55,482 nt of DNA, taken from positions 1-55,482 of the forward strand of contig JAUIKM010000038.1 in NCBI GenBank assembly GCA_030430495.1, in the 5' to 3' direction. The position numbers were made by a program, and so were the translations under genes. Positions 19,422-45,361 of the stretch are shown piece by piece. The notes below the pieces were generated by a model, which saw nothing but the letters and a program-made list of their open reading frames with translations, searched no databases and was not told the origin of the DNA. Positions within the stretch are counted from its first letter, which is position 1. The number at the start of each line of letters is the position of its first letter. Origin of the DNA: a bacterium (GTDB taxonomy: Bacteria; Bacteroidota; Ignavibacteria; Kapaibacteriales; UBA7675).

Positions 19422-20151
19422 CGTTCGTCAAGATCGGTTTGTGACATGCACCTGCTTGCACCCGAAAACTAACAAAATGCTTTCGGGCGTGCAACGACGC
19501 ACGCACCGGGCGGATCATTGGGCAAACGAGGCAAACGACAATCAAAAAGGCAGTGAAAAGCAAAAAATCAACGGTTTTCAACTTATTGCTGACGAGGTAT
19601 GATTGGCAGTCAAATCATCCAAGGATAAAACAAATGGCAGGCAATGTCAACGAAAAAATGAGCGCCGCCAATATTTTCACTCAAAAAAGTTTTTTGTGGC
19701 GCAGGGCCGAATTTGTCCCTCGGTTTTTCCAATAAATCACCTATTTACGCAATGTGACTTATGAGAGTCAGGCGGTATTCTCACAATTAACTGAAACGAC
19801 GATTCTTAAACACGGCAGGCGAATTAAATGAAACCAATCCGACACTTACCGTGTACTAGGGTCATCGGACAAACACAGACCCCGAAGTCCGGCCGAAAGG
19901 CACGGTACAACACATGGCACGGTGTTGGACGGCGGAAACAGGGGTAGCCGAAACGGGGCGAAACTGAAACAGGGACAGATTTTTCCTGAGACAAAATTCA
20001 CGATCGCGGTTCGGCAAGAAATCAAACGTTTTGTTTAACCAAATGGTGGCAGGAGGCCTGAGCGAAAAGATGTTCAACCCGAAAAATGGAGTTGTGCGTA
20101 TGTCAGGTTGACACTCATTATGTTTATTCCTTTACACGAAGGAGGAGAGCT
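19422..20151. other. Intergenic region between divergent cysS and prkA
   Basis: 730 bp with no supportable gene, more A+T-rich than the flanks. TTGCACCCGAAAA (from 19456) pairs imperfectly with TTTCGGGCGTGCAA (19481-19494) and would lie in a cysS leader. CAAAAAAGTTTTTTG at about 19682 is a small palindrome. It must contain the promoters of both genes, but none stands out. GGAGGAG at 20141-20147 is the prkA ribosome site. Confidence 0.5.
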
Positions 20152-22086
20152 ATGGTTAGCGTGCAGGAATTACAACGGATGATAGAAGATGATCGGCGTG
20201 ACAACCCGAAACAGTCCTGGAAGGGGACCTTCATCGACTATCTGCATATGCTCCAGGAAACCCCTGAAGTAACGAAACTTGCCCACACCCGCCTCTACAG
20301 AGCGCTGACGCAGGCTGGATCACGAAATATCCTCGATACCAGCGACGCCCGCGTAAAGCGTTTGTTTAACGACGATCCCATTCCCGTATACAGATTTTTT
20401 GAAGACGAATTTTTCGGCATCGAAAAGACGATTGCCAAAATCGTCCGCTATTTCCATTCCGCAGCATTAAAAGGTGAAGAAAGCCGCCAGGTCCTCTACC
20501 TGATGGGCCCCGTCGGCGCAGGTAAGAGTTCGCTGATTGAAAAGATCAAACAGGCGTTGGAACAAGCGCCGCCGTTCTACGCCATCGAAGGCTGCCCGAT
20601 GCACGAAGAACCGCTGCACCTGCTGCCGCGGCACCTTCGCCCCGAGTTTGAAGGCATGCTCGGCGTGCACATTGAAGGCGATCTCTGCCCGATATGCCGC
20701 CGTCGCCTGAAAGAAGAATTCGGCGGGCGCTACGAAGAGATGCCGGTTGTTTCGCGCGAGTTTTCCAAGCGCAACCGCACCGGCATCGGGATGGTGCCGC
20801 CGGTCGATCCGAACAACCAGGATACCTCCGTGTTAATCGGCTCGGTCGACATTTCCAAGCTCGACATGTATTCGGAAGGCGACGCCCGCGTCCTCGATCT
20901 CAACGGCGCGTTAAACGTCGGCAACCGCGGTCTGGTGGAATTTATTGAAGTCTTCAAGAACGAAACAGAGTACCTGCACGCCATGATTACGGCGACGCAG
21001 GAAAAGTCGATTCCGGCGCCGGGACGCCACGGCATGATTTATCTGGACACGGTAATCGTGGCGCACTCGAACGAAGCCGAATGGCAGAAGTTTAAGGCTG
21101 ATCACACTAATGAAGCTATTCTTGACCGCATCGTGGTTGTTAAGGTGCCGTACAATCTGCGCCTGAGCGAAGAGGTCAAAATTTATCGTAAAATTATTGG
21201 CGCATCCGACTTCAACGCGGACATCGCACCGCACACGATTGAAATCGCATCCATGTTCGCTTTGTTAACGCGCCTGGAGCCGACAAACAAGTGCGACCTG
21301 ATGACCAAACTTCGCATCTACAACGGCGAAGAAGTCGTCGAGCAGGGATCGACCAAAAAGCTGGATGCACGCGAACTCCGCGAGGATGCGCGCAACGAGG
21401 GCATGACCGGCATTTCGACGCGTTTCATTATGAAAGCGCTCGACAATGCCCTGTCCGACAACTTCGAGGGCAATTGCATTCACCCGATCAATGTGCGCGA
21501 AGCGCTGATCAAAATGGTGAAGGAAACGGAACTGCCAGAGGACACGCGCAAGCGCTACCTCGGTTTCCTGCAGGACACACTGCACAAGGAATACCTGAAA
21601 GTCCTCGAAAAAGAAATCGCCAAGGCCTTTGTCTACAGCTATCAGGAGCAGGCCGAACAGTTGTTCCAGAATTATCTGGACCACACCGAAGCTTATGTTA
21701 ACAAAACCAAGGTGCGCGACCGCAACACCAGAGAAGAGCTCGAACCGGACGTCGATTTCCTCGCGATGATCGAAGCGCAGATCGGCATCACCGGTTCCGC
21801 CTGCGACGGCTTCCGCCAGGAAGTTATCGCCTACCTCTGGTCGGCATCGCGCCGCGGCGTCACCTTGACGTTTTCGAGTTACGAGCCGCTGAAAGAAGCG
21901 ATCGAGAAACACCTGATGGTGTCCGTCCGCGACATCAGCCGCATCGTGACCAAAGCACAAACGCGCGACGGCGAGCAGGAACAAAAATACGGCGACATGG
22001 TCAGGAGCATGATCGCCAACGGTTACCCGGCTTCCTGCGTAGACGTCATTCTCAAGTACGCAGCCAATCACTTGTGGAAAGACTGA
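20152..22086 (+). CDS. prkA: PrkA family serine protein kinase / AAA+ protein
   Basis: A 644-residue protein. The N-terminal PrkA AAA+ domain has a Walker A motif GPVGAGKSS at 119-127 and a kinase-homology region in the C-terminal third (from about 420). It matches the usual ~640-residue family. PrkA proteins act in starvation, stationary-phase and sporulation responses. In E. coli the counterpart YeaG works with YeaH, whose homologue is encoded downstream here. The ATG at 20152 follows GGAGGAG with correct spacing; the frame is open a further 66 bases without homology. A 10-bp stem hairpin (22111-22145) follows the stop codon. Confidence 0.94.
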   Translation: MVSVQELQRMIEDDRRDNPKQSWKGTFIDYLHMLQETPEVTKLAHTRLYRALTQAGSRNILDTSDARVKRLFNDDPIPVYRFFEDEFFGIEKTIAKIVRYFHSAALKGEESRQVLYLMGPVGAGKSSLIEKIKQALEQAPPFYAIEGCPMHEEPLHLLPRHLRPEFEGMLGVHIEGDLCPICRRRLKEEFGGRYEEMPVVSREFSKRNRTGIGMVPPVDPNNQDTSVLIGSVDISKLDMYSEGDARVLDLNGALNVGNRGLVEFIEVFKNETEYLHAMITATQEKSIPAPGRHGMIYLDTVIVAHSNEAEWQKFKADHTNEAILDRIVVVKVPYNLRLSEEVKIYRKIIGASDFNADIAPHTIEIASMFALLTRLEPTNKCDLMTKLRIYNGEEVVEQGSTKKLDARELREDARNEGMTGISTRFIMKALDNALSDNFEGNCIHPINVREALIKMVKETELPEDTRKRYLGFLQDTLHKEYLKVLEKEIAKAFVYSYQEQAEQLFQNYLDHTEAYVNKTKVRDRNTREELEPDVDFLAMIEAQIGITGSACDGFRQEVIAYLWSASRRGVTLTFSSYEPLKEAIEKHLMVSVRDISRIVTKAQTRDGEQEQKYGDMVRSMIANGYPASCVDVILKYAANHLWKD

Positions 22087-22110
22087 CCCCCCGAGCATTC
22101 CCGGCATATT

Positions 22111-22145
22111 GAGTCGCCGCGCAACCCCAGGGCCTGCGGCGACTC
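22111..22145 (+). other. Intercistronic hairpin after prkA
   Basis: GAGTCGCCGC (22111-22120) and GCGGCGACTC (22136-22145) form a perfect 10-bp stem with a 15-base loop. No T tract follows, so it is more likely an mRNA processing or 3'-end stability structure inside the operon than a terminator. Confidence 0.6.
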
Positions 22146-22249
22146 CCGCCGAACAAGTCGTACAGCCGGAGGTATTCCGGCGCGAGCGCGGCAAAATTTG
22201 CCGCATCAGGAGCAACACAACTTAACATTCTCTTCCGGGAGGCGTCGAC

Positions 22250-22453
22250 ATGAAAAAGCGATTTCCCATCATCCCCGAACTCGATCCCGAAATGGACGAG
22301 TTGCGAAAGCAAACTCAGAAACCAGGTAAACGCACCGGCTCCAACGCCGGACGCAAACGCAAAAAGCGGAAATCAGCAACGGGATTTAACACAATGACGG
22401 CAGGTAGACGAGTTAACAACGGCAAGACACGCAAAAGCGGACGAACGCTGTGA
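22250..22453 (+). CDS. Small, highly basic protein of unknown function in the prkA operon
   Basis: A 67-residue protein. About 21 residues are Lys or Arg, nearly all after position 18, including the cluster GRKRKKRK (34-41). The first 18 residues are different: MKKRFPIIPELDPEMDEL. GGGAGG lies seven bases before the ATG, which is why I accept so short a gene. It sits between prkA (163 bp upstream) and yeaH (337 bp downstream), in the same direction. I do not recognise the family. The basic, low-complexity tail suggests binding to nucleic acid, ribosomes or an acidic partner (inference). Confidence 0.6.
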   Translation: MKKRFPIIPELDPEMDELRKQTQKPGKRTGSNAGRKRKKRKSATGFNTMTAGRRVNNGKTRKSGRTL

Positions 22454-22790
22454 GGTGAATAAACAGCAACGTAAACCGACAATGTCGTAGCTCTCCAGAG
22501 TGTCGGTTCCCGGCAGTCGGTTCGGAATCAAGGTGCTTGGATCAAGCAGTCGTCGCACATTCCAGTAATTGATGAGTTGAAGGTAAATGGAAGTGTGAAT
22601 TTCGGATCGATGCGCCGGGGCCGGCGCTCGTTTTTGGAGGCAATTTCCCCAACTTAACACAATACTCGCAACATATATGAAAAGACTACTCGTGAACAGA
22701 TGGAGAATGGTGATTAACATGAAGTGAATTCACGGATCCCCGGGCCGCAAGGCTTTCTCGACTGTTTAATGGTCGAAAGGATGGAGAGAT
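22454..22790. other. Gene-free interval inside the prkA-yeaH-spoVR cluster
   Basis: 337 bp without a gene. AACCGACA (22474-22481) pairs with TGTCGGTT (22501-22508) around a 19-base loop. This could be a processing or attenuation hairpin or hide a separate promoter for yeaH-spoVR. GGAG just before 22791 is the yeaH ribosome site. Confidence 0.5.
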
Positions 22791-24140
22791 ATGATTGAAT
22801 TTGTCATACGCGAATGGCAGCCCTCCGAGGCGCAACGCAGCGACAGAAGCGCCGGAGACAGGGCACGACACCGGCAGAAAGTACGCGAGGCTATCCGCGA
22901 GAATATCGCGGACATCATAGCCGAAGAATCGATTATCGGACGCAACAACGACAAAATTATCAAAGTGCCGATCCGCGGCATCAAAGAATACCGCTTTGTC
23001 TACGGCGACAACAACAACCCTCAGGTCGGCGAAGGCAATGGCGACGAACAAACCGGCCAGGTGCTCGGCCAGGGCGACGACCAGCAGCAGGGCGAAGGCC
23101 AGGCCGGCGACCAGAAAGGCGTCGACTACTACGAGACCGACGTCAGCCTGGAAGAGCTGATCGACATTATGTTCGAAGACCTGGAACTGCCATTCCAGGA
23201 GCGCAAAAAACTGCGCAATATCGAGACGGACAGCAACCGCAAGAAGATTGGCTACCGCAAAAAAGGCGTCAGATCCAACCTGTCCCACTATCGCACCGCG
23301 CTGGAACGCGTGCGACGCATGCAGGGCGTTAAACGCCGCCTGGCGCTGCTCGAACAGCAGATTGAGGAAGTTGAACAGCTGCTCGAATCGACGCGTGACG
23401 TAAAGTCCGATGTGCGCATCAACTACTCCAAAGAACTGGCCTTCCTGCGTGATAAACACGCGGAGACGCAGGCGCTCTTAAACAGCAACGCCGACGATTC
23501 CGATGCGGCGACCGGTACTGTAGCAGCGCCGCGTTTTCCCTTCCGCGAAAGCGACCTGCGCTACCATCATCATCGCAATAAACTGCGACCGGAATCAAAC
23601 GCCGTGGTGATGTGCATCATGGATACCTCCGGCTCGATGGACACGCTTAAAAAGTACCTGGCACGCAGCTTCTTCTTTCTGCTCTTCAGTTTTGTGCGGA
23701 CAAAATACGACAAGGTGGAAGTGGTGTTTGTGGCACACAGCACCGAAGCCCAGGAAGTGACCGAGGAAGAGTTCTTCACGAAGGGACAGTCGGGCGGAAC
23801 CTACATCTCCTCCGGCTACAACAAAGCGCTCGAAATCATGCAGGAGCGCTACCATCCAAGCCTGTGGAATGTCTATGCCTTCCACTGTTCCGACGGCGAC
23901 AATTTTCCCAATGACAACCAGAAAACGGCGGAAGCCGCGCTTGAGCTGTGCGAGCACTGCAACCTGTTCGGCTACGGTGAGATTAAACCGAATGGCAAAC
24001 GCTCCTACGAAAACAGCATGCTGAGTTTTTTCGAGAAAAACATCGATGCCGACAACTTCCGCTCTCTGTTAATTAACGGCAAGGAAGATATCTGGAACGC
24101 CTTCCGCGATTTTCTTTCCGCCGAGCGAGGTGCGTCATGA
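22791..24140 (+). CDS. yeaH: YeaH/DUF444 family protein with von Willebrand-like metal-binding motif
   Basis: A 449-residue protein of the UPF0229/DUF444 family. The N-terminus has the DRSAGDRARHRQKVREAI stretch and IPVRGIKEYRF-like KVPIRGIKEYRF. A Gln/Gly/Asp-rich linker occupies about 75-110. A VWA-like fold holds the MIDAS motif in MDTSGSMD (Asp278, Ser280, Ser282). Family members work with the PrkA/YeaG kinase in stress adaptation. It is well expressed by appearance (GGAG before the ATG), and its stop overlaps the spoVR start by 4 bp (ATGA), showing translational coupling. Confidence 0.93.
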   Translation: MIEFVIREWQPSEAQRSDRSAGDRARHRQKVREAIRENIADIIAEESIIGRNNDKIIKVPIRGIKEYRFVYGDNNNPQVGEGNGDEQTGQVLGQGDDQQQGEGQAGDQKGVDYYETDVSLEELIDIMFEDLELPFQERKKLRNIETDSNRKKIGYRKKGVRSNLSHYRTALERVRRMQGVKRRLALLEQQIEEVEQLLESTRDVKSDVRINYSKELAFLRDKHAETQALLNSNADDSDAATGTVAAPRFPFRESDLRYHHHRNKLRPESNAVVMCIMDTSGSMDTLKKYLARSFFFLLFSFVRTKYDKVEVVFVAHSTEAQEVTEEEFFTKGQSGGTYISSGYNKALEIMQERYHPSLWNVYAFHCSDGDNFPNDNQKTAEAALELCEHCNLFGYGEIKPNGKRSYENSMLSFFEKNIDADNFRSLLINGKEDIWNAFRDFLSAERGAS

Positions 24141-25642
24141 GAAACTATCAATTGCAGGATCTGCACGACTGGGCCGAACGCGCGTCCGCGATGGCGCAGG
24201 AATTTGGGCTCGACTGTTTTCCGCAGGAATTTGAAATCTGCGATCACGAGCAGATGCTCGGCTACATGTCCTACTCCGGCATGCCCTCGCACTACCCGCA
24301 CTGGTCCTACGGCAAACAGTTTGAAAAACAGAAGACGATGTACGACTACGGCGTCTCCGGGCTGCCGTACGAAATGGTGATTAACTCCAATCCCTGCCTG
24401 GCCTACCTGATGCGCGACAACTCCCTGCTGCTGCAGGTCCTGACAATCGCGCACGTGTACGGCCACAACGACTTCTTCAAGAACAACTTCACGTTCGCGC
24501 ACACACAGCCCGAGTACGTTCTGCCGAGCTTTAAAATGCACGCCGACCGCATCCGCGGCTACGTCGAGGATCCGGGCATCGGCATCGAACGCGTTGAGGC
24601 TATGATCGACGCCGCGCACGCGCTCTCGCTGCAGTGCCGACGCAACATGCAGATTAAACGCAGCTCGCCCGATCAGGTCCGCGAGCAGATCATTCGCAAC
24701 TATGAACGCGAAGCCGGCGACAACTACGACGAAGACGAACTGCGTCGCCGCCTGCGCCACAACCCGCCCGCGCCCGAAGAAAACCTGCTGGAATTTATCC
24801 GCGATAACAATCCCGAACTGGCCGAATGGCAGCGCGACATCATCTCGATAGTCGTCGCGCAGACGCGCTATTTCATTCCGCAGATGGAAACCAAGATCAT
24901 GAACGAGGGATGGGCCTCATACTGGCATCACACCATCATGAGTTCCCTGGATCTGCCGCAGGACATGCACATGGAATTTCTCGTGCGCCACGCCCAGGTC
25001 TTGCGCCCGCATCCCGGCGGATTAAATCCCTATCATCTGGGCTACAAAGTGCTCAACGCCATTCGCATCTGGTACGACGGCGCGATTGATGAAAAGACGC
25101 TGCGACCGGATGAACACTCGCTCTTTGTTAAAATGCGCGAAGACTTCGAACGGCGCGACGCGATTCCCTTCGATACGCGCGACGTCAGCGGAACACAGAA
25201 ACTGTTTCAGGTGCGCGAGGCCGACCGCGACAAGTCCTTCCTGCGCCAGTACCTGACGCCGGCGATCATGGAAGACCTCAACCTCTTTGAGTTTGAACAC
25301 CGCCGGAATCACCGCGGTCAACGCGTCGGAATGGTGACGAACACGTCGAACACGGAAGGCTGGCGCCACGTCAAAGAGTCGCTGCTCGCCAACATCGGCA
25401 CGGAATCGTTGCCCGTTATCAAAATTGAAGACGCCGGATTTGACGGCGTCGGTACGCTGCTGCTGAGGCACTACAGCGACGGCCGCGAACTGGAAGCGTC
25501 CTACGCCCAGTACACGCTTAAATATGTTAAACAGCTATGGCACCGAGCCGTACGCCTGGAGGCGATTATCGCAGGGAAGGAAACCGCATTTACGGTCGAC
25601 ATGGAAGGGAAGCTGGATACGAAACAAAGAAAAGCGGCCTGA
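24137..25642 (+). CDS. spoVR: SpoVR family protein
   Basis: A 501-residue protein of the SpoVR/YcgB family. Conserved blocks are FPQEFEICDHEQMLGYMSY (about 28-46), IAHVYGHNDFFKNN (about 103-116), MNEGWASYWHHTIM (about 255-268) and HPGGLNPYHLGYKV (about 294-307). The family is needed for spore cortex formation in Bacillus but is common in non-sporulating bacteria. There it travels with prkA and yeaH, as here; its molecular activity is not established. Histidine/glutamate pairs in YGHNDF and NEGWASYWHH look like a metal site (inference). A terminator follows at 25679. Confidence 0.94.
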   Translation: MRNYQLQDLHDWAERASAMAQEFGLDCFPQEFEICDHEQMLGYMSYSGMPSHYPHWSYGKQFEKQKTMYDYGVSGLPYEMVINSNPCLAYLMRDNSLLLQVLTIAHVYGHNDFFKNNFTFAHTQPEYVLPSFKMHADRIRGYVEDPGIGIERVEAMIDAAHALSLQCRRNMQIKRSSPDQVREQIIRNYEREAGDNYDEDELRRRLRHNPPAPEENLLEFIRDNNPELAEWQRDIISIVVAQTRYFIPQMETKIMNEGWASYWHHTIMSSLDLPQDMHMEFLVRHAQVLRPHPGGLNPYHLGYKVLNAIRIWYDGAIDEKTLRPDEHSLFVKMREDFERRDAIPFDTRDVSGTQKLFQVREADRDKSFLRQYLTPAIMEDLNLFEFEHRRNHRGQRVGMVTNTSNTEGWRHVKESLLANIGTESLPVIKIEDAGFDGVGTLLLRHYSDGRELEASYAQYTLKYVKQLWHRAVRLEAIIAGKETAFTVDMEGKLDTKQRKAA

Positions 25643-33292: not shown

Positions 33293-35788
33293 TCAGAGAT
33301 GTTCGCCCGGCTCCGCTGCAACTTCGGCTGTCGCACGCCGCGTGCCGCGGCCGTTCAGACGCAGGCGTTTGCCCGCCTTCTCGCGACCGTTCAATTTGCC
33401 GCGGGCCGCCTGAGTGCCGCTCACCGTCACGCGCAGCGCGCGAAGACCGGACACACCCTGCATATCTTCCAGCTCAAAGCTTTCGATCTGCGGCTCGATG
33501 CTACCGACGCTCTGCAGGTAGTGCAGATATTCCTCGTATTCGCGCGCTTCTTTGTTCTGCGAATAGACGATCGCAATCTTGCCGGGCTGCGTCAGCCGCT
33601 CGCCGCTGCTCTTCACCACGGCTTTGTCGATCCGCTTTTTGATGATCTCGTAGCGGATGTTGTACGCGCCGTCCACGTCGAACTGTTTTTCGTCCACGCG
33701 GAAGCGAATCGCCAGCGGCGTGTCCTGCACCAGAATCAGGTGCGCCGACTCCAGCGGCAGCGGCAGGTCGTCGCGCAGACGATCGGTGCTCACCGCGGCT
33801 TCGCACATCGCTTCCAGCTGCCACAGACGCAGATTTTTCAGGTACATGCGGTCAAAGTAGCCGTCGGCGTTCAGCGACGCGCCGATGTACATGCCGTGAT
33901 CCACGCCGTCGCTTTTGTACTTCTCGAAGTAGTGCGGGAACATCGCCTGCGCGCGTTCCTGCGCTTTTTCCAGAATCTGCCCCACCGTGTCGTTGATGCG
34001 CGCCACGCTTTCGTCGAATTCGCGCCGCTTTCGGTACACGATGTTCAGCTCGGGCGAGAGACTGTCGTAGTACACGCGCACAATGTCGTCCACGCGCGTC
34101 GAGTAGGTCCGCAGATGCTGGAACAGCGGCTCGACTTCGCTGCGCAGGTAGTCGAGTATTGAGAGTTCATCGCCCGAGCCCAGGTGTTCAATCACCGAGT
34201 CGACCATGCCGCTCAGGCGAAAATCCAGCTCGTCGAAAATCGGCATGGGTTTGACCGCCGCCGCCGCGCGCACCACGTCCAGCGCCAGGCTCAGCTGGCC
34301 GGCCAGGTCGGCGCGGATGCACTCGTTGCGCTGCGTGCTGGAGCCGCGGATGTCGGACAGGCCGTAGAGCGGGTAGACACCTTCAAAAACAATCGGCTCC
34401 ATCTCGCCCGCGGAGCGGTCCTGCCCCGGCTGACGCGCCAGCACGTTGACGGCCGCGCGGTGAAAACGCCACTCGACCGCCGGGTGAATCGCCGTGCATT
34501 CGTTCTTGATGATCTGCTGAATTTGTGCGTTCAGGTCGTCCACGCTGCGTTTCATCGCCACGGCGAACATCGGCAGCAGCTGCCGCAGCTTCAGTGTGTT
34601 CAGGCTCGTCAGGTCGCCGCCGTTCGGAGAGGCCAGCTCGATCATGCCGACGACATTGCCGTCGTGTATCAGCGGCGCTACCGCGATGTTGCGCAGTCCC
34701 GCGCGCAGCAGCAGTTCTTCCGTGCCGCGCCGGTTCGGCAGGCGCTCCAGGTCCGTTTCCACCTCAAATCCGCCCGCCTCGTAGGCGCGTTGGTAGACGG
34801 AGTCCTTGAAAGCGTCGCATTTCAGTCCGCAGTCGTCGGTCAGAATCAGACTGCGGCCCAGTCGGCCCGCAAACATCATCATCGTTTCGTAGTCATTCGC
34901 AAAGGGCGTGATGCCCAGACGCAGGTCGCGACGACGCATGATATTGCGCACGGCGCGCTCCAGGCGGTCGAAGGACGCGGCATTTGTCAGCGCGTCCGAC
35001 TCGATCAGCCGGTATTTCAGGCGCGACAGCGTTTCCTGTTCACTTACGTCCGTCGCCGCAAAAATCGAGACGCCGCTGAAAACAAACAGGTCCAGCGGCA
35101 ACAGACGCGACCACATCTCCAGGTCGGTCGAATTTTTCATCAGGGCGTCGATGTCGTCGTCGCTCAGTTGCGGCAACTCCCCGTCCACCTTGATATCCAT
35201 AAATCGCGGGTCGATCTCGCTGCGGAAGTGCAGGTCCAGTCCGTCCGCCGGGTTCTGCGCGGTGAACACAAACGGTGCGATGTGCTCAAAACGGCGACCG
35301 TAAAACCGGGCCAGAATCATGCTGTAGGCGCTCATGATCTTGGCCTGGACCACGCTCTCCATGTCCATGTTGACCTGCACGTGTTTGTGCGCGCCGTCTT
35401 CTCCGCTCAGGTAGTCGCGGAACTTCTGCGTGGCGTAGACCAGATCCGTCGAAAAGGGCCGGAAAGCGCCCACAAAAGCCTCGTTCTGCTGCGCCGGCGG
35501 AATCACCGCGGTCAGCATGCATTCTATCAGGTCCATGTTGGCGGAGACGGTTTCCATGTCCACTGCTTCGGCCAGCAGGGCGGGCGCCGCTTCCACGCGG
35601 TCCACCACTTCCTGCGCCATCGTGGAGTGCATGCCTTTTGTCTGCCGCACCAACGACCGCCAGAACTCCAGAAGTTGTTCAAAACTGAGCCGGGACCGCA
35701 GGTGTACGCCGCGCGAACGCAGGTAGTCGTCCACCTCGCCGATATTGATTCGACGGTCAGTATTCGATGTAGTAGTTGTAGCTGTCAT
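33293..35788 (-). CDS. Large GAF-domain protein, Bacteroidota type (paralogue 1)
   Basis: An 831-residue soluble protein. The N-terminal ~290 residues are helical. A GAF domain occupies about 295-420, including LGRSLILTDDCGL and IAVAPLIHDGNVVGMIELAS. A long conserved C-terminal part follows: ECTAIHPAVEWRFHRAA (about 440-456), FEGVYPLYGLSDIRGSS (about 475-491), AMFPHYFEKYKSDGVDH (about 637-653), FDVDGAYNIRYEIIKKRIDKA (split about 725-745) and ERLTQPGKIAIVYSQ (about 753-767). I know this architecture as a widespread 'GAF domain-containing protein' of Bacteroidota with no assigned function. The last 40 residues are basic and variable. The ATG at 35788 is chosen over an upstream GTG. The neighbour upstream is a paralogue. 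Confidence 0.8.
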   Translation of the reverse strand: MTATTTTSNTDRRINIGEVDDYLRSRGVHLRSRLSFEQLLEFWRSLVRQTKGMHSTMAQEVVDRVEAAPALLAEAVDMETVSANMDLIECMLTAVIPPAQQNEAFVGAFRPFSTDLVYATQKFRDYLSGEDGAHKHVQVNMDMESVVQAKIMSAYSMILARFYGRRFEHIAPFVFTAQNPADGLDLHFRSEIDPRFMDIKVDGELPQLSDDDIDALMKNSTDLEMWSRLLPLDLFVFSGVSIFAATDVSEQETLSRLKYRLIESDALTNAASFDRLERAVRNIMRRRDLRLGITPFANDYETMMMFAGRLGRSLILTDDCGLKCDAFKDSVYQRAYEAGGFEVETDLERLPNRRGTEELLLRAGLRNIAVAPLIHDGNVVGMIELASPNGGDLTSLNTLKLRQLLPMFAVAMKRSVDDLNAQIQQIIKNECTAIHPAVEWRFHRAAVNVLARQPGQDRSAGEMEPIVFEGVYPLYGLSDIRGSSTQRNECIRADLAGQLSLALDVVRAAAAVKPMPIFDELDFRLSGMVDSVIEHLGSGDELSILDYLRSEVEPLFQHLRTYSTRVDDIVRVYYDSLSPELNIVYRKRREFDESVARINDTVGQILEKAQERAQAMFPHYFEKYKSDGVDHGMYIGASLNADGYFDRMYLKNLRLWQLEAMCEAAVSTDRLRDDLPLPLESAHLILVQDTPLAIRFRVDEKQFDVDGAYNIRYEIIKKRIDKAVVKSSGERLTQPGKIAIVYSQNKEAREYEEYLHYLQSVGSIEPQIESFELEDMQGVSGLRALRVTVSGTQAARGKLNGREKAGKRLRLNGRGTRRATAEVAAEPGEHL

Positions 35789-35868
35789 ATCTTTGCCCGC
35801 ACCTGATTGCACCGCAGGGAATAGCTCCGGCGCCTTGAGGCCTTTACGCTGCGCGTAGGCCTGCCTGA

Positions 35869-38343
35869 CTATTTTGTTTGTCCCGCAACGGCATGCGCCG
35901 TGTTGTCGAATATCGCCGCAATTTGTTGTGTCGCCTCGGCCGAAAGTCCGGTCGCCCCGTTGGAGGCCCCCGCGCCCCTGACTCCGCCCGTCGCTGCGCC
36001 GACGGTCACGCGCAGGGCCTGCATTCCCTGGATGCCCTGCACCGGGTCGAGTTCCAGCGCTTCGACGCCAGGTTCCAGGAAGCCGGCCGCCGCCAGAAAT
36101 TCAAAATATTCGCGGTATTCAAGCGCGGCTTTGGGCTGCGAGAAAACGACGGCAATCGCGCCGGGTTGCGTCAATCGTTCCGCCGTGCCGCGAACTTTCA
36201 CCTTGTCGATCCGCTTTTTGATGATTTCATAACGCAGGTTGTACGCGCCGTCCACGTCGAACTTTTTGTCGTCCAGCCGGAAGCGCACGGCCAGCGGCTC
36301 GTCGTGCACCAGCAGCAGATGCGAGGTCTGCATCGGAACCGTCAGCTCGCCGGCCAGTTCCCGCGTGCGCCGCGCCACGCGGCACAGCAGCAGCAGTTGC
36401 CACAGCCGCAGGTTGCGCAGGTACATGCGGTCGAAGCTGCGCCGCTCCACCAGCGAAGCGCCGACGTACATCACGTGTTCGATGCCGTCGGACTTGTACT
36501 TCTCAAAATAGTGCGGGAACATCGCCTGCGCGCGGTCCTGCTCCTGGTCCAGAATTGTTGATATTTCGTCGTTCAGGCGCTGCAGCGACTGGTCGAACTC
36601 GCGGCGGCGGCGGTAGACCATGCCGGCGTCGGCGTCCACGGCGTCGGTATAAGCGTCAATCGCCGCGCCGACCGGCGCACCGAAACCGCGCAGGCGGTCG
36701 AACACGCTTTCGACGTCGCTGCGCAGGAAGTTGACGATGCCGCTTTCGTCGCCCGAGACCACGCCGCGACGGATGTGCGCTTCGTGCTCGCGGATTTTGT
36801 AGCGGATTTCGCGCAGAATCGGCATCGCGTCGATTTCCAGCGCCGCGCCGATCACCCGCTGCGCCAGGTCCAGCTGTTCCAGCAGATCGCACTGAATGGC
36901 CGCGTTGCGCAGGCCGGTGGCGTCGCGCACGTCGCTCAGGCCATAGAGCGGATAAACCTCGTCAAACACCAGGTCGCGCATTTGCACCGTGGCGTCGCGG
37001 CGGCGCTCCTCCAGCAGCTTGATGGCCGCGGAGCGGAAACGCCACTCCACCGTCGGGTGAATCGAGGTGTATTCTTCCTTGATCAGCGCCTCAACGCGGT
37101 TGTTCAGTTCTTCCGTGCTGCGGTCCAGCGCAACGGCAAACAAAGGCAGCAGTTCGCCGATTTTGATGAGGTTGACGCGGTTGAACGAGTAGGCTTCGGG
37201 GCTGCCGAGTTCGAGCATGCCGACGAGTTCGCCGTCGTGCAGCAGCGGCGCCACAACGACGTTGCGCAGACCGATCGCCAGAAAGCGCTCCTCCAGCATG
37301 CCCGGCTGTTCCAGCTGCTGCAGATCGTCGATGAGCTCAATGCGACCCGTGCGCGCCACGCGCGCATACAGCGAGTCTTCGAGCGCGCGCGACGTCGCCA
37401 GGCACTGTTCGGTCAGCGCCAGGCTGCGCCCCAGTTGACGCGAGAGTCGCAGCGTGTTGTCCAGTCCGGCCGAGTAGGCCGCCACGCCCAGGCGCATGGT
37501 CGGGCGTTTAAGGTAGCTGCGAACCTTGCGCTCCAGTTCGTTGAATGCATCTGGCGCGGTCAACGCACTTTTCTGCAGCAGATCCAGACGCATACCGGAC
37601 AGCATTTCCTGGTCGGTGATGTCCGTGGCATGGATAATCGAGAAGCCGCGCATTTCAAAGTTTTCCGGCGGCAGGATGCGCATCCAGGTGTCCAGGTCGG
37701 TCATGTTGGAACGCAGCTCGGTCAGATCGGCATCGCTCAACTCCACGCGCGGTCCACGTTCAATGATGCGCAGAAAACGCCCGTCGATCATGATTTTGTA
37801 GTGTCGTTCCATGCCCGTGTCGGGATCGGGAACGACAAAAACCACCGGAAATTCGTAGTTGAGTCCGATGCCGTAGATCTGCCCCAGAATGGCCACGTAC
37901 ATGTGCACCATACGCGCCAGGAGCATCTGGCCCGGATCAAAATTCATCGTGAAGTTGATTTCGTCTTCGCGCAGTTTGATGTACTTGTCAAAATCGCGCG
38001 TGGTGTAGAGCGGGCGCATGTCGTCGGGAGTGACGGCGGCAATCAGATGGCGTTCCCATGCGCCGGGCGCAACGACGCCGGACATCAGAAATTCAACGAG
38101 CGTCCGGTTGCGTTCCACCACGTCAAACGATTCGATCGGCCCGTGCAGTTCGCTGCACTGCTCCACCAGGTTAAACTGTCGGCGCCACTCGGCCTGCAGC
38201 GGATGTTCGCGCGGCAGCAGATCGTTGCGCCAGTACTCGCGCAAAACGTCGAAACTCAACGTCATCCGCAGCGGCGGCGCGTTTTTTCCGGCACAGGTAA
38301 AAAGTGTCTGATGAAGGGATGCGCTGTCAATGCCTGTTTTCAT
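35869..38343 (-). CDS. Large GAF-domain protein, Bacteroidota type (paralogue 2)
   Basis: An 824-residue paralogue of the next gene, with the same order of parts. A divergent helical N-terminus precedes a GAF domain with LGRSLALTEQCLATS and VVVAPLLHDGELVGMLELGS (about 300-420). TSIHPTVEWRFRSAAIK, FDEVYPLYGLSDVRDA, AMFPHYFEKYKSDGIEH, FDVDGAYNLRYEIIKKR and ERLTQPGAIAVVFSQ follow. The C-terminal part is far more conserved between the two than the N-terminus, suggesting a shared core and different inputs. The 80-bp gap to the downstream paralogue and identical direction suggest an operon arising by tandem duplication. The start is ATG at 38343, without a clear ribosome site. Confidence 0.8.
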   Translation of the reverse strand: MKTGIDSASLHQTLFTCAGKNAPPLRMTLSFDVLREYWRNDLLPREHPLQAEWRRQFNLVEQCSELHGPIESFDVVERNRTLVEFLMSGVVAPGAWERHLIAAVTPDDMRPLYTTRDFDKYIKLREDEINFTMNFDPGQMLLARMVHMYVAILGQIYGIGLNYEFPVVFVVPDPDTGMERHYKIMIDGRFLRIIERGPRVELSDADLTELRSNMTDLDTWMRILPPENFEMRGFSIIHATDITDQEMLSGMRLDLLQKSALTAPDAFNELERKVRSYLKRPTMRLGVAAYSAGLDNTLRLSRQLGRSLALTEQCLATSRALEDSLYARVARTGRIELIDDLQQLEQPGMLEERFLAIGLRNVVVAPLLHDGELVGMLELGSPEAYSFNRVNLIKIGELLPLFAVALDRSTEELNNRVEALIKEEYTSIHPTVEWRFRSAAIKLLEERRRDATVQMRDLVFDEVYPLYGLSDVRDATGLRNAAIQCDLLEQLDLAQRVIGAALEIDAMPILREIRYKIREHEAHIRRGVVSGDESGIVNFLRSDVESVFDRLRGFGAPVGAAIDAYTDAVDADAGMVYRRRREFDQSLQRLNDEISTILDQEQDRAQAMFPHYFEKYKSDGIEHVMYVGASLVERRSFDRMYLRNLRLWQLLLLCRVARRTRELAGELTVPMQTSHLLLVHDEPLAVRFRLDDKKFDVDGAYNLRYEIIKKRIDKVKVRGTAERLTQPGAIAVVFSQPKAALEYREYFEFLAAAGFLEPGVEALELDPVQGIQGMQALRVTVGAATGGVRGAGASNGATGLSAEATQQIAAIFDNTAHAVAGQTK

Positions 38344-38536
38344 GCTTCGGTCCGGCACGGTGTGGTACGATGCTGATTGCCGGCGCCGAGGCCGGTTCTG
38401 CAATGCCAGACGAAACGATCAAAACTGAAAAAGAGTGCCGCACGAGCCGGCCGACGATTTTGAACAGCCCGGAACATCCCGGATCGGAGTTGTGCGACCG
38501 GCTCAAATGCACCGGCATTCGATCTGCACGACTAAC

Positions 38537-38577: not shown

Positions 38578-39216
38578 TCAGTATTTCAGGGCAATCTGAA
38601 TAGTGATGTTTTGCGGTTCGATCAGAAATTTGTCGTCGACGAGGAGTTCTTCTTCGATGGCGATAATGTACTGCAATTGTAACGTGCCTTCCTGGCCGCC
38701 GATGTTGTCCAGCGTTGTAACGACCTGAGTGACGGGTTCCGCGCCACCGCCGTTGGGGAGCAGGTGCCGGGTTGCGATATCGCCGAAACCGGGGAAAACG
38801 CCCAGCTCGACGTAGCTTTCTTCTCCGAGTTTGAGCGGGTCTTTGGCGAGCGAGGTCGCGGGCAGATCCAGGCCCAGGGCGGCCACCACCACCTGCTGTT
38901 CGATCAGTTCCTGAGTATCGACAAGTATGGCTTCGAGATTCAGGCTGATAAAGGACGGATTGACGGGGTCGTCCAGACGCAGTTCGATGGGGATTTCGGT
39001 CACCGGCTGCATCAGATGCGGCGGATAGTCATCGATGCTGACAATGATGGCGGCATCCACGACTTCGACCTGTTGCAGCGCGATAGGATCAAAATCAAAG
39101 GTGCGCGGCGTTGAGACTTCGTCGGCCTGGGCGCATCCCGCCAGAACGAGCAGGATACATGCGGCCGGCAGGCGCAAAAAACGCAGCAGAGCGGGAACTG
39201 ACTTTATGATTTTCAT
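38578..39216 (-). CDS. Lipoprotein of unknown function in the sigma-factor operon
   Basis: A 212-residue protein with a lipoprotein signal (CILLVLAGC, modified Cys28). The mature part is rich in hydrophobic/acidic beta strands (VEVVDAAIIVSIDDYP, TEIPIELRLDD, QYIIAIEEELLVDD) and ends in ITIQIALKY. This looks like an all-beta, possibly carbohydrate-binding-like or Ig-like fold, but I do not recognise a family. It begins 36 bp after the anti-sigma gene, so it is almost certainly co-transcribed with the sigma and anti-sigma genes. It may be the periplasmic or outer-membrane partner of the sensor (inference). Confidence 0.75.
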   Translation of the reverse strand: MKIIKSVPALLRFLRLPAACILLVLAGCAQADEVSTPRTFDFDPIALQQVEVVDAAIIVSIDDYPPHLMQPVTEIPIELRLDDPVNPSFISLNLEAILVDTQELIEQQVVVAALGLDLPATSLAKDPLKLGEESYVELGVFPGFGDIATRHLLPNGGGAEPVTQVVTTLDNIGGQEGTLQLQYIIAIEEELLVDDKFLIEPQNITIQIALKY

Positions 39217-39252
39217 ACTGATCTCATTGTTGCAATTAACAGCGCGGCAGCG

Positions 39253-40542
39253 CTAGAACCGAACGGACGCGCCGTAGAACCAGCCGAGTTTATCGGACGT
39301 GAAACGCGCACCGTTGATGTTGTACCACAAACGACTGAATTCAACGCCCAGCGACAGCACAATCGGTTCTTCCGGCGTTGTGCGCAGACCGAGAATGCCC
39401 TTGCCGAGCGGGCCGACTTCCGAGGTTCCAACGATGCTCTGGACGTAGGGGAACACCACGTCGACGGGAGAGAGAACGCGCAGGTCGTAGCGCGTCACCA
39501 GACCGGCCCAGAACAGCTGCGGATTCTGGCGCACGGTTGCGGCGCGGTCCAGAATGACGGTGCGATATTCCTGGCCGAAGGACTCGCGGCCGCCTTCAAT
39601 TCCCAGCACAAAGTTGTTGCCGAATTCATAGGTGAAAGCCAGCGAGCGATCCGCCGTAAAGCCGTCCACCTGCGAGGGCAGGGTTATGTCGGGGCTGGAG
39701 TTGCCGATCAAAGTGCGCAGTTCGATACTGAAATCCATGTCGCGCAGTTCTTCAAGTTCAGCCGCGAATTCGGCTATGTCGAGCGGCGCGGTTTCGGCGC
39801 GCGTTTCACTTTGACTCGGTCGCCCAAGTCCGGCAATCAGCACGGCGTCGGTCGTCGGCAGCGGAGCGCTCCTCAAGACCGGCGTCTGAAGCGACGCCGG
39901 TTTTTGAGGACTACTGTGCGACTCAAGGTCAGTACTTTCGGGATCACGCAATTGTCGGTCGGCAAATTCTGTGCTGTTCGCATTGTCGGTCGTGACATCG
40001 GGTGTGGGCGCGGGCGCGGGCATGGCGCGGACGACGGTTTTCCGTGAGGGCTGCGCGGGAACGACGGGAATGTGCGCCGGCAGTTCAGAACTCGCAACAG
40101 TCGGGGAACCAGACCCGATCTGTTCCGGCCAGGGGAATGGCATCGGTACTTCGACGGCGGCATAACGACTGCCGTCCACTTCGACTTCGTCCTGACCGAA
40201 GCCGCCCATGGAGACCAGCGTCAGCAGCAGCGCCACGATGGCGCCGCCGGCGGCGGCCAGAGCGTGCGAACCCCAGCGACGCAGACCGCCCATTGCGCGC
40301 GCGCGCCAGGAGAGACTCGTCGAGGCCGCACCGTAGCCGAGCGCGGCAAAAATGTGCGCGCCGGCGGAAGCCGGAGCGGCAATGGTCGGGATGTCCTGTT
40401 GGACAATCGACCCGATGCGCAGGTGTTCCTGGAGCACCCGTCGCAAGTCGGAATCGACGGATAACTGCTGGAACAGGTGCTCCTGGTCGGCCTGGTCCAG
40501 GTCGCCGTCCAGAAAATCACGCAGCATAGTTTCTGAATTCAT
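39253..40542 (-). CDS. Anti-sigma-like membrane protein with predicted outer-membrane beta-barrel C-terminus
   Basis: A 429-residue protein. Residues 1-60 (LRDFLDGDLDQADQEHLFQQ) resemble the helical sigma-binding end of anti-sigma factors, without zinc ligands. A single transmembrane helix is at about 92-114 (ALAAAGGAIVALLLTLV). A long Pro/Ser/Thr-rich linker covers about 130-260. The C-terminal ~165 residues alternate polar and hydrophobic strands (SLAFTYEFGNNFVLGIEGG, IVLSLGVEFSRLWYNI) and end in WFYGASVRF, with the terminal Phe typical of outer-membrane barrels. GAGGTGAC sits just before the ATG, 16 bp after the sigma gene. It could span from cytoplasm to outer membrane (inference). Confidence 0.7.
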   Translation of the reverse strand: MNSETMLRDFLDGDLDQADQEHLFQQLSVDSDLRRVLQEHLRIGSIVQQDIPTIAAPASAGAHIFAALGYGAASTSLSWRARAMGGLRRWGSHALAAAGGAIVALLLTLVSMGGFGQDEVEVDGSRYAAVEVPMPFPWPEQIGSGSPTVASSELPAHIPVVPAQPSRKTVVRAMPAPAPTPDVTTDNANSTEFADRQLRDPESTDLESHSSPQKPASLQTPVLRSAPLPTTDAVLIAGLGRPSQSETRAETAPLDIAEFAAELEELRDMDFSIELRTLIGNSSPDITLPSQVDGFTADRSLAFTYEFGNNFVLGIEGGRESFGQEYRTVILDRAATVRQNPQLFWAGLVTRYDLRVLSPVDVVFPYVQSIVGTSEVGPLGKGILGLRTTPEEPIVLSLGVEFSRLWYNINGARFTSDKLGWFYGASVRF

Positions 40543-40558
40543 GATGTCACCTCGGCCT

Positions 40559-41125
40559 TCACTGAAATTTCTCGATGTCGGCCAGATAAGGCGAAAGAAT
40601 GCTCCGGATGCGCTCTTTGGCGCGCCACACCCTGTTTTTAAGTGCCGGAACAGTATCGCCTGTTATTTCCGCGATTTGTGAATACGACATGCCTTCGTAC
40701 TCTTTCAACACAAAAGCCTCACGATATTTGATATCGAGCAGGCCGAGAGCGGTCTCGATCAGATTGAGCAGATCGCGACGCTCGTAACTTTCGTCCCGGC
40801 TGGAGAAGGAAAAGTCATCCAGGTCCAGGAACTGTTTTTTGTCGCGCCGGTGGTTGTAGCAGAGGTTGCGGGCAATCTTGAACAGATAGGACGGGACGTT
40901 CTGCACCTCGTATTCCTTCTGCGCCGCGCGATGGAAACGAATGAAGGTTTCCTGGTACACGTCCTGCGCATCGCGATCATCGCCCAGAATCTTGACGCAG
41001 TACATAAAAACGCGATTGCCGAAACGGGCATACAATTCGGCGAAGGCGCGTTCGCCCTCCGCCCTGCCTTTGGCAATGCGTTTGTACAAGTCGAGATCGC
41101 TCGTGTCCTTATTAATCCTCTGCAT
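40559..41125 (-). CDS. RNA polymerase sigma factor, ECF type
   Basis: A 188-residue sigma-70 family protein. Region 2 is at about 24-95: FAELYARFGNRVFMYCVKIL, then DAQDVYQETFIRFHR and LFKIARNLCYNHRR. Region 4 is at about 122-178: LLDIKYREAFVLKEYEGMSY, then IAEITGDTVPALKNRVWRAK. There is no region 1.1 or 3, as usual for ECF factors. It heads a minus-strand operon with the anti-sigma-like gene 16 bp downstream, the usual arrangement in which the membrane protein holds the sigma factor until a signal arrives. ECF factors often transcribe their own operon; the target promoter cannot be read from one copy. Confidence 0.95.
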   Translation of the reverse strand: MQRINKDTSDLDLYKRIAKGRAEGERAFAELYARFGNRVFMYCVKILGDDRDAQDVYQETFIRFHRAAQKEYEVQNVPSYLFKIARNLCYNHRRDKKQFLDLDDFSFSSRDESYERRDLLNLIETALGLLDIKYREAFVLKEYEGMSYSQIAEITGDTVPALKNRVWRAKERIRSILSPYLADIEKFQ

Positions 41126-44040: not shown

Positions 44041-45276
44041 TTACACCGGATGGGCGGTCAGGACAGCCACGGCAAAAGCCAGGATGGAGAGGATAAGCCC
44101 GTACATAAATACGTCGTAGGAAATGCGCAGGAACTTGTACTTGCGGCTCAGGACGCGGCCGAGAAAAAACAGGTCTTTTGTAAGACTGTCGTAGAGGTAT
44201 TCGCGGTCGCTCATCATCTCCCGCATGCCCCAGACATAGTCGTCAAGGGTAACATTAAAAAAATTGCCGAAGAACAGGAGGTTGACGCGCCGTTCCTTCA
44301 CGTCCGTCTGCGTAAAGGTGCCCTCCGTCACTTTGGGTCTGGTGGAGATGGTCGCAAAAATCAGCGTCACCACACAAACAGTCAGCAGCATCAGCGTCGG
44401 CGCAATCAGATGATCGTTGGCCTCCAGATTGCCGACGAGCAAACTTACCACTATGGAAATTATGATCGCGTTAACGCTGATAAGCATGTTGGCTTTGTTA
44501 TCGGCGATGGCGCTGAGATTGATGTGATTGCGCATGGTGACGCGGAACATCGTTTCGATGCCGCGGTCGGGCACAATCTGCTTGTTTTTGATGGATTCGA
44601 GCTTTTTCTTCTGGACCTTGATTTTTAGCGAGTCTTCCTCCGCCTTGCGTTTGCGCTTGCGCACCTTCTTTTTCAGCCTGGCTATCGTCGCCATCTTGTT
44701 TGGCTGATAGCGGGCAAGCGCATAGTCGGTAAAGAACTGGTGCTCCATCAGGAAGCTGACGCTTTTTTTCATCCACTCCACATCGTCGTAGCGCTCCTGC
44801 GCGGCGTGTTCCCATTCGACGCGCAGCAGGTCGTTGGTCTTCAGATAGGTCTCCAGCCCGACGTGGTGCAGATCGGCGTCGCAGATCACTTTTTCCATCA
44901 AGGTCTGCGGAAAAGGCGGGTATTTCGTCACGAGAATCAGCGAACGCACGCTATCGATTTTTTCGGCGGAATATCCCCGGTGCTGCAGGAACTCGGCGGC
45001 CATGTCGGCGCTGCGTTGTTCGTGATTCACGCGCCCGTCCACATAACCGACATCGTGGAACCAGGCGGCGATCTCCACCAGCTCCATTTCAGCGTTGTTC
45101 AGACCGGACGCGGTCCCGATTTCACGGGCGGCTTCCACCACGGCAAGCGTGTGGCTGTAGTTGTGATAGAGGTAATTGTTGCCCAACTGGTTTTTGAGCA
45201 CTTCGGCAACGTGCTCGCTCACATCCTGCAGCAGTTGATTCCGCTCCCCTGAAATTTCCTGGCTGGTCGTTGTCAT
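44041..45276 (-). CDS. HD-domain phosphohydrolase fused to a Pycsar-effector-type (PycTM) membrane domain
   Basis: A 411-residue protein. The HD domain (about 30-190) has His38/His42 in LYHNYSHT, His74-Asp75 in AAWFHDVGYVDG and an acidic pair in ICDADLHHVG. A very basic coiled stretch (199-232, KKKVRKRKRK) leads to a PycTM-like domain (about 238-411): GIETMFRVTMRNHINLSAIA, DNKANMLISVNAIIIS, helices at about 265-283 and 290-312, then YDSLTKDLFFLGRVLSRKY and a last helix near the end. PycTM domains are membrane effectors of cyclic-pyrimidine anti-phage systems, but no cyclase is encoded near this gene. ATG at 45276 is preferred over an upstream start that lacks homology. Confidence 0.82.
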   Translation of the reverse strand: MTTTSQEISGERNQLLQDVSEHVAEVLKNQLGNNYLYHNYSHTLAVVEAAREIGTASGLNNAEMELVEIAAWFHDVGYVDGRVNHEQRSADMAAEFLQHRGYSAEKIDSVRSLILVTKYPPFPQTLMEKVICDADLHHVGLETYLKTNDLLRVEWEHAAQERYDDVEWMKKSVSFLMEHQFFTDYALARYQPNKMATIARLKKKVRKRKRKAEEDSLKIKVQKKKLESIKNKQIVPDRGIETMFRVTMRNHINLSAIADNKANMLISVNAIIISIVVSLLVGNLEANDHLIAPTLMLLTVCVVTLIFATISTRPKVTEGTFTQTDVKERRVNLLFFGNFFNVTLDDYVWGMREMMSDREYLYDSLTKDLFFLGRVLSRKYKFLRISYDVFMYGLILSILAFAVAVLTAHPV

Positions 45277-45361
45277 TCCCACTCGGCTCAATAACGTGCA
45301 GGCAGCACCCGAAAAAAAGCGCAAAGTATGGATATTTAGCGCGCGGAGCAATCAGCGCCGG

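Follow-up and report, generated by a model that had tools for sequence, protein, structure and literature searches.

A candidate trans-envelope anti-sigma receptor of the Dma kind, and the lipoprotein motif that accompanies its barrel, in the Kapaibacterium lineage

Introduction

Can a single polypeptide report the state of the outer membrane directly to a sigma factor? Three genes raise this question. They lie on the minus strand of the DNA analysed here (the window, i.e. a whole contig of 55,482 bases from a genome of 5.6 Mb):

40559..41125, minus: gene of an ECF sigma factor of 188 aa, with Pfam Sigma70_r2 and r4_2 above the cut-off
39253..40542, minus: gene of an anti-sigma/barrel protein of 429 aa (the middle gene), C-terminal end ...ASVRF
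38578..39216, minus: gene of a lipoprotein of 212 aa, lipobox LAGC, Cys28

The tight packing of sigma, anti-sigma-like and lipoprotein genes had been pointed out by an earlier reading of these letters (hereafter the sequence-only reading), and the three-gene feature is confirmed as real: the gaps are 16 nt between sigma and middle genes and 36 nt between middle and lipoprotein genes, and GAGGTGA is found 5' of the ATG of the middle gene. A polyphosphate kinase gene (43411-41330) lies upstream of the sigma gene.

The same reading took such layouts for uncharacterised ones, which has to be corrected, since the architecture is published with mutant phenotypes in Bacteroides and Phocaeicola, as given in passages of PMC13088901 and PMC9308784. 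Those of PMC13088901 describe the Dma ('dual membrane-spanning anti-sigma') proteins of Bacteroides, which comprise an anti-sigma domain, a membrane helix, a disordered tether and a barrel. B. thetaiotaomicron vesiculates more when it lacks Dma1 or Dma2, by way of Das1 or Das2; the effects of the dma2 deletion require das2, and the proteins are described there as occurring solely among Bacteroidota. The passages of PMC9308784 concern the pair M0N98_03761-03760 of Phocaeicola vulgatus, in which an anti-sigma factor of this layout represses the sigma regulon genetically. This pair is induced by the envelope-damaging antibacterial protein BcpT, its regulon lengthens the O-antigen, and the EcfO pair of B. 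fragilis is cited there.

Results

Predicted architecture of the middle protein

Neither the middle protein nor the lipoprotein could be assigned to a credible family of Pfam or NCBIfam; a sub-threshold match of the middle protein to AWPM-19 (Pfam, 0.026) was not retained. When the members of its family were scanned singly the matches were all weak (RseA_N in 4 of 20, zf-HC2 in 3 of 20, OMP_b-brl in 1 of 20). Profiles and structure prediction nevertheless delimit four parts:

40339..40542, minus: N-terminal anti-sigma domain, residues 1-68, three helices, from the N-terminal profile against the PDB
40207..40263, minus: predicted inner-membrane helix, residues 94-112, the most hydrophobic 19-mer (mean KD 2.23)
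39736..40206, minus: unstructured linker, residues 113-269, pLDDT below 50
39256..39735, minus: predicted 8-stranded outer-membrane beta-barrel, residues 270-429, with terminal Phe, from AlphaFold2 and PDB fold matches

A full-length profile compared with the PDB remained weak (RsiW 0.15, RseA 0.52), and a profile of 33 N-termini was clearer. Against 177,635 PDB sequences its top three matches are RsiW (9.3e-5), RseA (0.0094) and DdvA (0.04), all anti-sigma factors, and the entries concerned also contain the sigma partner, SigW with RsiW in 5wuq and SigmaE with RseA in 1or7. What had been described as a cytoplasmic helical start is, by profile, an anti-sigma domain, and the outcome that would have spoken against that description, an N-terminus that does not fit sigma region 2/4, was not observed. 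The AlphaFold2 model, computed from 4 input sequences (pTM 0.41, mean pLDDT 52), places helices at residues 3-11, 17-29 and 31-48 with a pLDDT of ~70.

A single inner-membrane helix had also been proposed and agrees with the hydrophobic 19-mer at residues ~94-112; all 20 members have such a 19-mer, located within residues 83-141. The Pro-rich linker is present as well (13% Pro), with a length of 157 aa where ~130 had been claimed. All 20 members have a linker of 116-180 residues, and its sequence is unconserved. Its length therefore seems to matter, as expected for a tether that crosses the periplasm. In the model the pLDDT is below 50 at residues 43-146 and 148-267.

For the C-terminal part AlphaFold2 (4 sequences) predicts eight membrane strands between residues 270 and 428, plus a short hairpin, with a pLDDT of ~80. 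Compared with solved outer-membrane barrels, this model gives a Z of 16.3 for NspA (2.6 A/139), 16.0 for OmpA (2.7 A/145), 15.3 for OprF and 14.2 for OmpW. The porin of a Legionella secretion machine reaches 17.0 but with a worse rmsd (4.3), and the PsbO barrels of photosystem II are lower (Z ~10 to 11). The outer face of the barrel is hydrophobic and variable, the inner face more polar and, in most strands, better conserved; the conserved charged residues R276, E316, E320, R351 and E401 all lie on the inner face. With the outer face defined as whichever was the more hydrophobic, a hydropathy difference of this size between the faces arose in 56 of 5000 permutations. Of the 20 members 12 terminate in F and 2 in Y. 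The barrel-like end with terminal Phe that the sequence-only reading had noticed is in line with these predictions, and a soluble periplasmic fold, which would have contradicted it, is not what they give.

Pairing of the sigma factor with the middle gene

The sigma factor of the window matches Sigma70_r2 (1.2e-14) and r4_2 (3.1e-12) in Pfam and, by phmmer, solved ECF sigmas including SigW (5wuq) and SigmaE (1or7). We looked for its counterparts beside 41 genes encoding both domains (20 loci from the search of 61 genomes, L036 and 20 genes in further stretches). In 40 of the 41 an ECF sigma gene lies on the same strand at most 162 nt upstream, L069 being the sole exception; this adjacency is more than chance. 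Among the 27 ECF-like sigmas in the genome of the window, the seven best scores against the window's sigma, itself included, belong to those adjoining the seven full-length copies of the middle gene.

The partners also diverge together. Over 40 pairs the distances between sigmas correlate with those between anti-sigma domains (r 0.65) and with those between barrels (r 0.62), values reached in neither case by any of 2000 permutations. Both correlations hold within the window's genome (9 pairs; 17 and 27 of 2000 permutations for anti-sigma domain and barrel, respectively). For G002 (11 pairs) the correlation with the anti-sigma domain holds (22 of 2000), while sigma-barrel co-divergence is not significant among its 11 copies (r 0.22, 257 of 2000). 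That the sigma tracks the anti-sigma domain and not the barrel in this genome would fit a binding of sigma at the N-terminus and a freer exchange of barrels.

Upstream regions were compared for the same 40 pairs; after removal of those shorter than 120 nt, 36 were kept as distinct entries. Seven of the 36 have a sequence GTAAC-N15..19-GTTA ~36 nt ahead of the sigma start codon (mean of 0.05 in shuffles), namely those of L003, L008, L012-L015 and L036, so that six belong to family f2 of the relatives and one is L036. It looks like the ECF promoter of a leaderless, self-regulated operon in those relatives. The motif is absent upstream of the window's sigma gene and anywhere else in the window, and we therefore do not extend this putative autoregulation to the window.

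Distribution and copies of the family

Matches to the middle protein were found in 60 of 61 genomes of the Kapaibacterium lineage, its own included, with up to 22 in one relative's genome. With the family profile the window's genome gives 14 matches at E of at most 0.01, of which 7 are essentially full-length. Two more divergent genes of the window's genome match weakly at both ends. The divergent copies of this genome at L065:4172-5617 (481 aa) and L066:3953-5596 (547 aa) have sigma genes.

A barrel-only match is found in the same genome (L027/L064). The locus (L064:5167-6945, G000:C25) has a frame of 265 aa with a signal-peptide-like segment, and neither an anti-sigma domain nor a sigma gene; it is a natural split of the receptor.

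Across the phylum 72 of 296 genomes match, and outside the order the matches are mostly short frames covering the N-terminal domain only. Three genomes of the same class (G179, G212, G252) have long frames; that of G252 codes for both domains and lies 12 nt downstream of a sigma gene. A search of plasmids gave no match to the family, and NigD_N, used to look through 148 genomes for Bacteroides-like relatives that would carry true Dma proteins, gave none.

A lipid-proximal motif in the downstream lipoproteins

The lipoprotein, which had been suggested to be an accessory, gains support in this role from a motif at its mature start that is specific to the partner:

39103..39135, minus: lipid-proximal partner motif, residues 28-38, mature N-terminus CAQADEVSTPR, score 8/8

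We inspected the region downstream of 42 genes (the 41 two-domain genes and the barrel-only one), of which L003 stands at a contig end. A lipoprotein follows in 37 of the 41 testable cases, 36 being credible and that of L063 being assigned by eye; none was credible after L065, L066, L076 and one gene of L068. In an alignment of 41 lipoproteins, tandem copies included, the only part that is alike is C-x-S-(P/A)-x-(D/E)-h-(D/E)-T-P-R at the mature start. On an 8-point score, defined on the same sequences that it scores, 31 of the 41 reach 7 or 8 and 34 reach at least 6. Three unrelated lipoproteins from the same set of loci, the sole controls, do not exceed 3 of 8; a fourth control entry turned out to be a motif lipoprotein with a wrongly placed start. 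Seven of the 41 score at most 5, among them carriers of DUF4397 (2), Ig (1) and DUF4847 (1) with scores of 3 to 5, so that some neighbours may be unrelated.

Beyond the motif the lipoproteins are diverse: clustering at E 0.001 leaves 32 groups, 27 with a single member, and 20 of these singletons score 7 or 8. Among the matches listed, which concern 10 of the 41 lipoproteins, the motif carriers account for one TIG and two HYDIN/ASH/Cep192-like domains, the latter below curated cut-offs. Divergence among related ectodomains, and not a swapping of domains, could account for this diversity. A structural model of the window's lipoprotein (4 sequences, pLDDT 42) was useless and was discarded.

We then searched genomes for the motif at the DNA level. 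A strict pattern was too narrow (3 matches in 12 genomes, all beside barrel genes). A relaxed pattern gave 31 matches in the 61 genomes against 7 for the reversed pattern; the lipoprotein of the window itself is not recovered by it, owing to a Ser at a position where D/E/N/K is required. A hydrophobic segment immediately precedes the Cys in 16 of the 31, each of which directly follows a barrel gene; the other 15 lack both such a segment and, within a flank of at most 1.5 kb, a barrel gene. Six of the 16 linked matches come from outside the set that defined the motif (G011:C79, G045:C11, G017:C105, G015:C10, G022:C50 and G006:C178), the last three all being from one genus.

The barrel-only gene of L064, which has no adjoining sigma gene, is nonetheless followed by a motif lipoprotein with a score of 8. 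This indicates that the motif goes with the barrel and not with the sigma factor, and on these sequence grounds we read it as a candidate dock on the barrel.

Discussion

Comparison with known systems

The system of the window has the same four parts as Dma, in the same order and beside an ECF sigma gene, the comparison being one of architecture and not of sequence; according to the passages of PMC13088901, Dma2 also belongs to a three-gene operon. The two differ in lineage (Kapaibacterium here, Bacteroidales for Dma), in number (7 full-length copies here against 3 named Dma proteins in B. thetaiotaomicron) and in the downstream neighbour, a motif lipoprotein here and BT_1557, annotated DUF4943, for Dma2. 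On architecture it is a Dma-type system in a new lineage, which belongs to Bacteroidota by its NCBI lineage but is far from Bacteroides. With the M0N98_03761-03760 and EcfO pairs it shares a predicted periplasm-spanning anti-sigma factor with a C-terminal outer-membrane barrel, encoded downstream of the sigma gene. The Phocaeicola pair differs by its induction by BcpT, and the passages of PMC9308784 carry no motif of a lipoprotein adjacent to the barrel.

RsiW and RseA share with the middle protein, by profile match, an N-terminal sigma-binding domain. They have one inner-membrane helix each, as predicted here, and end in soluble periplasmic domains. The window protein instead continues to what is predicted to be an outer-membrane barrel, and it is not a classical anti-sigma factor of the RseA/RsiW type. 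Nor does it correspond to FecR/FpvR cell-surface signalling, which has a FecR domain and a separate TonB-dependent receptor: the predicted barrel here is fused and 8-stranded. Neither the window protein nor, in the 25 of 31 families listed, the 20 members gave a match to FecR. The signal of RcsF-OmpA/OMP goes to a phosphorelay. In that Escherichia coli sensor (PMC7553776, PMC4942254) a lipoprotein and an outer-membrane barrel likewise sense the envelope state. It has no anti-sigma factor, and its barrel and inner-membrane part are separate proteins.

The titles and abstracts surveyed contain nothing on such proteins in Kapaibacterium or on the lipoprotein motif. Relative to this literature the scale of the family, the conserved length of the tether, the barrel-only paralogue and the partner motif are new.

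Proposed mechanism and alternatives

The middle protein is, in our judgement, probably a trans-envelope anti-sigma receptor of the Dma kind with the lipoprotein docked on its barrel. Its N-terminal domain would keep the ECF sigma bound at the inner membrane, and the long unstructured tether would span the periplasm and end in the small barrel of the outer membrane. The lipoprotein would sit on or beside the barrel by its conserved lipid-proximal segment, leaving its variable part as the likely contact to a ligand or to another component of the envelope. A change at either of these outer-membrane components, whether by a ligand, by damage, because assembly fails or because the lipoprotein is lost, might then be relayed along the same polypeptide, through tension or, more likely, proteolysis, so as to free the sigma factor, which would transcribe its own genes and other envelope genes.

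Instead of a receptor for a ligand the barrel could be a client of the barrel-assembly machinery: should assembly fail, its unfolded aromatic-ended C-terminus would be met by periplasmic proteases, and the resulting cut would free sigma. The F or Y that ends many members fits this proposal, as does the RseA pathway, in which DegS is triggered by exposed C-termini of outer-membrane proteins. A further point in favour is that the Phocaeicola pair is induced by a toxin, the response to which overlaps that to a BamA inhibitor, as stated in the passages of PMC9308784. For one general signal, however, seven full-length copies here and 22 matches in a relative would be redundant, and mostly different lipoproteins follow each copy; we hold this explanation to be unlikely, if still worth reckoning with. 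We give little credence to the barrel being an anchor only, with periplasmic sensing through the linker or the sigma/anti-sigma pair and with the lipoprotein as a product of the regulon. The linker is long and a possible protease target, and the promoter-like sequence found ahead of the operon in some relatives points to an autoregulation under which the downstream genes may be mere outputs; but it is the interior of the barrel that is conserved, the linker being kept in length only, and a lipoprotein with the motif is also present after a barrel-only gene, which lacks a neighbouring sigma gene.

The motif itself might be a general signal of the lineage for sorting or surface export of lipoproteins rather than a docking site. 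It stands directly after the lipidated Cys, where sorting signals lie, and includes acidic residues. This explanation is already disfavoured, and very improbable in our opinion, because all 16 signal-bearing matches in the 61 genomes directly follow a barrel gene, with none in other lipoproteins, and because the three unrelated lipoproteins score so low.

Returning to the receptor docked by its lipoprotein, a more specific version can be put forward tentatively, and we hold it to be somewhat less probable than its negation: the copies would form a modular two-membrane receptor array, in which a constant sigma/anti-sigma/barrel chassis and a constant lipid-proximal dock are combined with lipoprotein ectodomains that can be exchanged and so provide every copy with a separate input. 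If so, sensors would evolve by swapping whatever follows eleven residues.

These data suggest that single-chain signalling from the outer membrane to a sigma factor is not a speciality of Bacteroides, being common and expanded as a form of ECF control in a lineage far from that genus. How a Dma-type barrel could learn something and pass the signal on is a question that the partner motif makes approachable. As the candidate dock is short and conserved and a barrel-only paralogue exists, this question can be tested with small constructs.

Genomic surroundings

The closest named relative of the middle protein comes from a Candidatus Kapaibacterium metagenome bin (L034). The neighbourhood is kept there, in the order of a kinase gene, the sigma gene, the barrel protein gene and three tandem lipoprotein genes, and the product of the kinase gene resembles, by eye, the polyphosphate kinase of the window.

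Other loci of the window deserve mention. On the minus strand, 33293-35812 and 35869-38403 encode adjoining large proteins with 41% identity across 793 residues, the second of the pair having a match to a GAF domain. Also on this strand, the product of 44041-45351 joins an HD domain to a Pycsar-effector transmembrane domain (PycTM, 4.4e-34); genes for a histidine phosphatase and for the polyphosphate kinase lie nearby. The plus strand carries consecutive PrkA kinase, DUF444 and SpoVR genes at 20086-25642.
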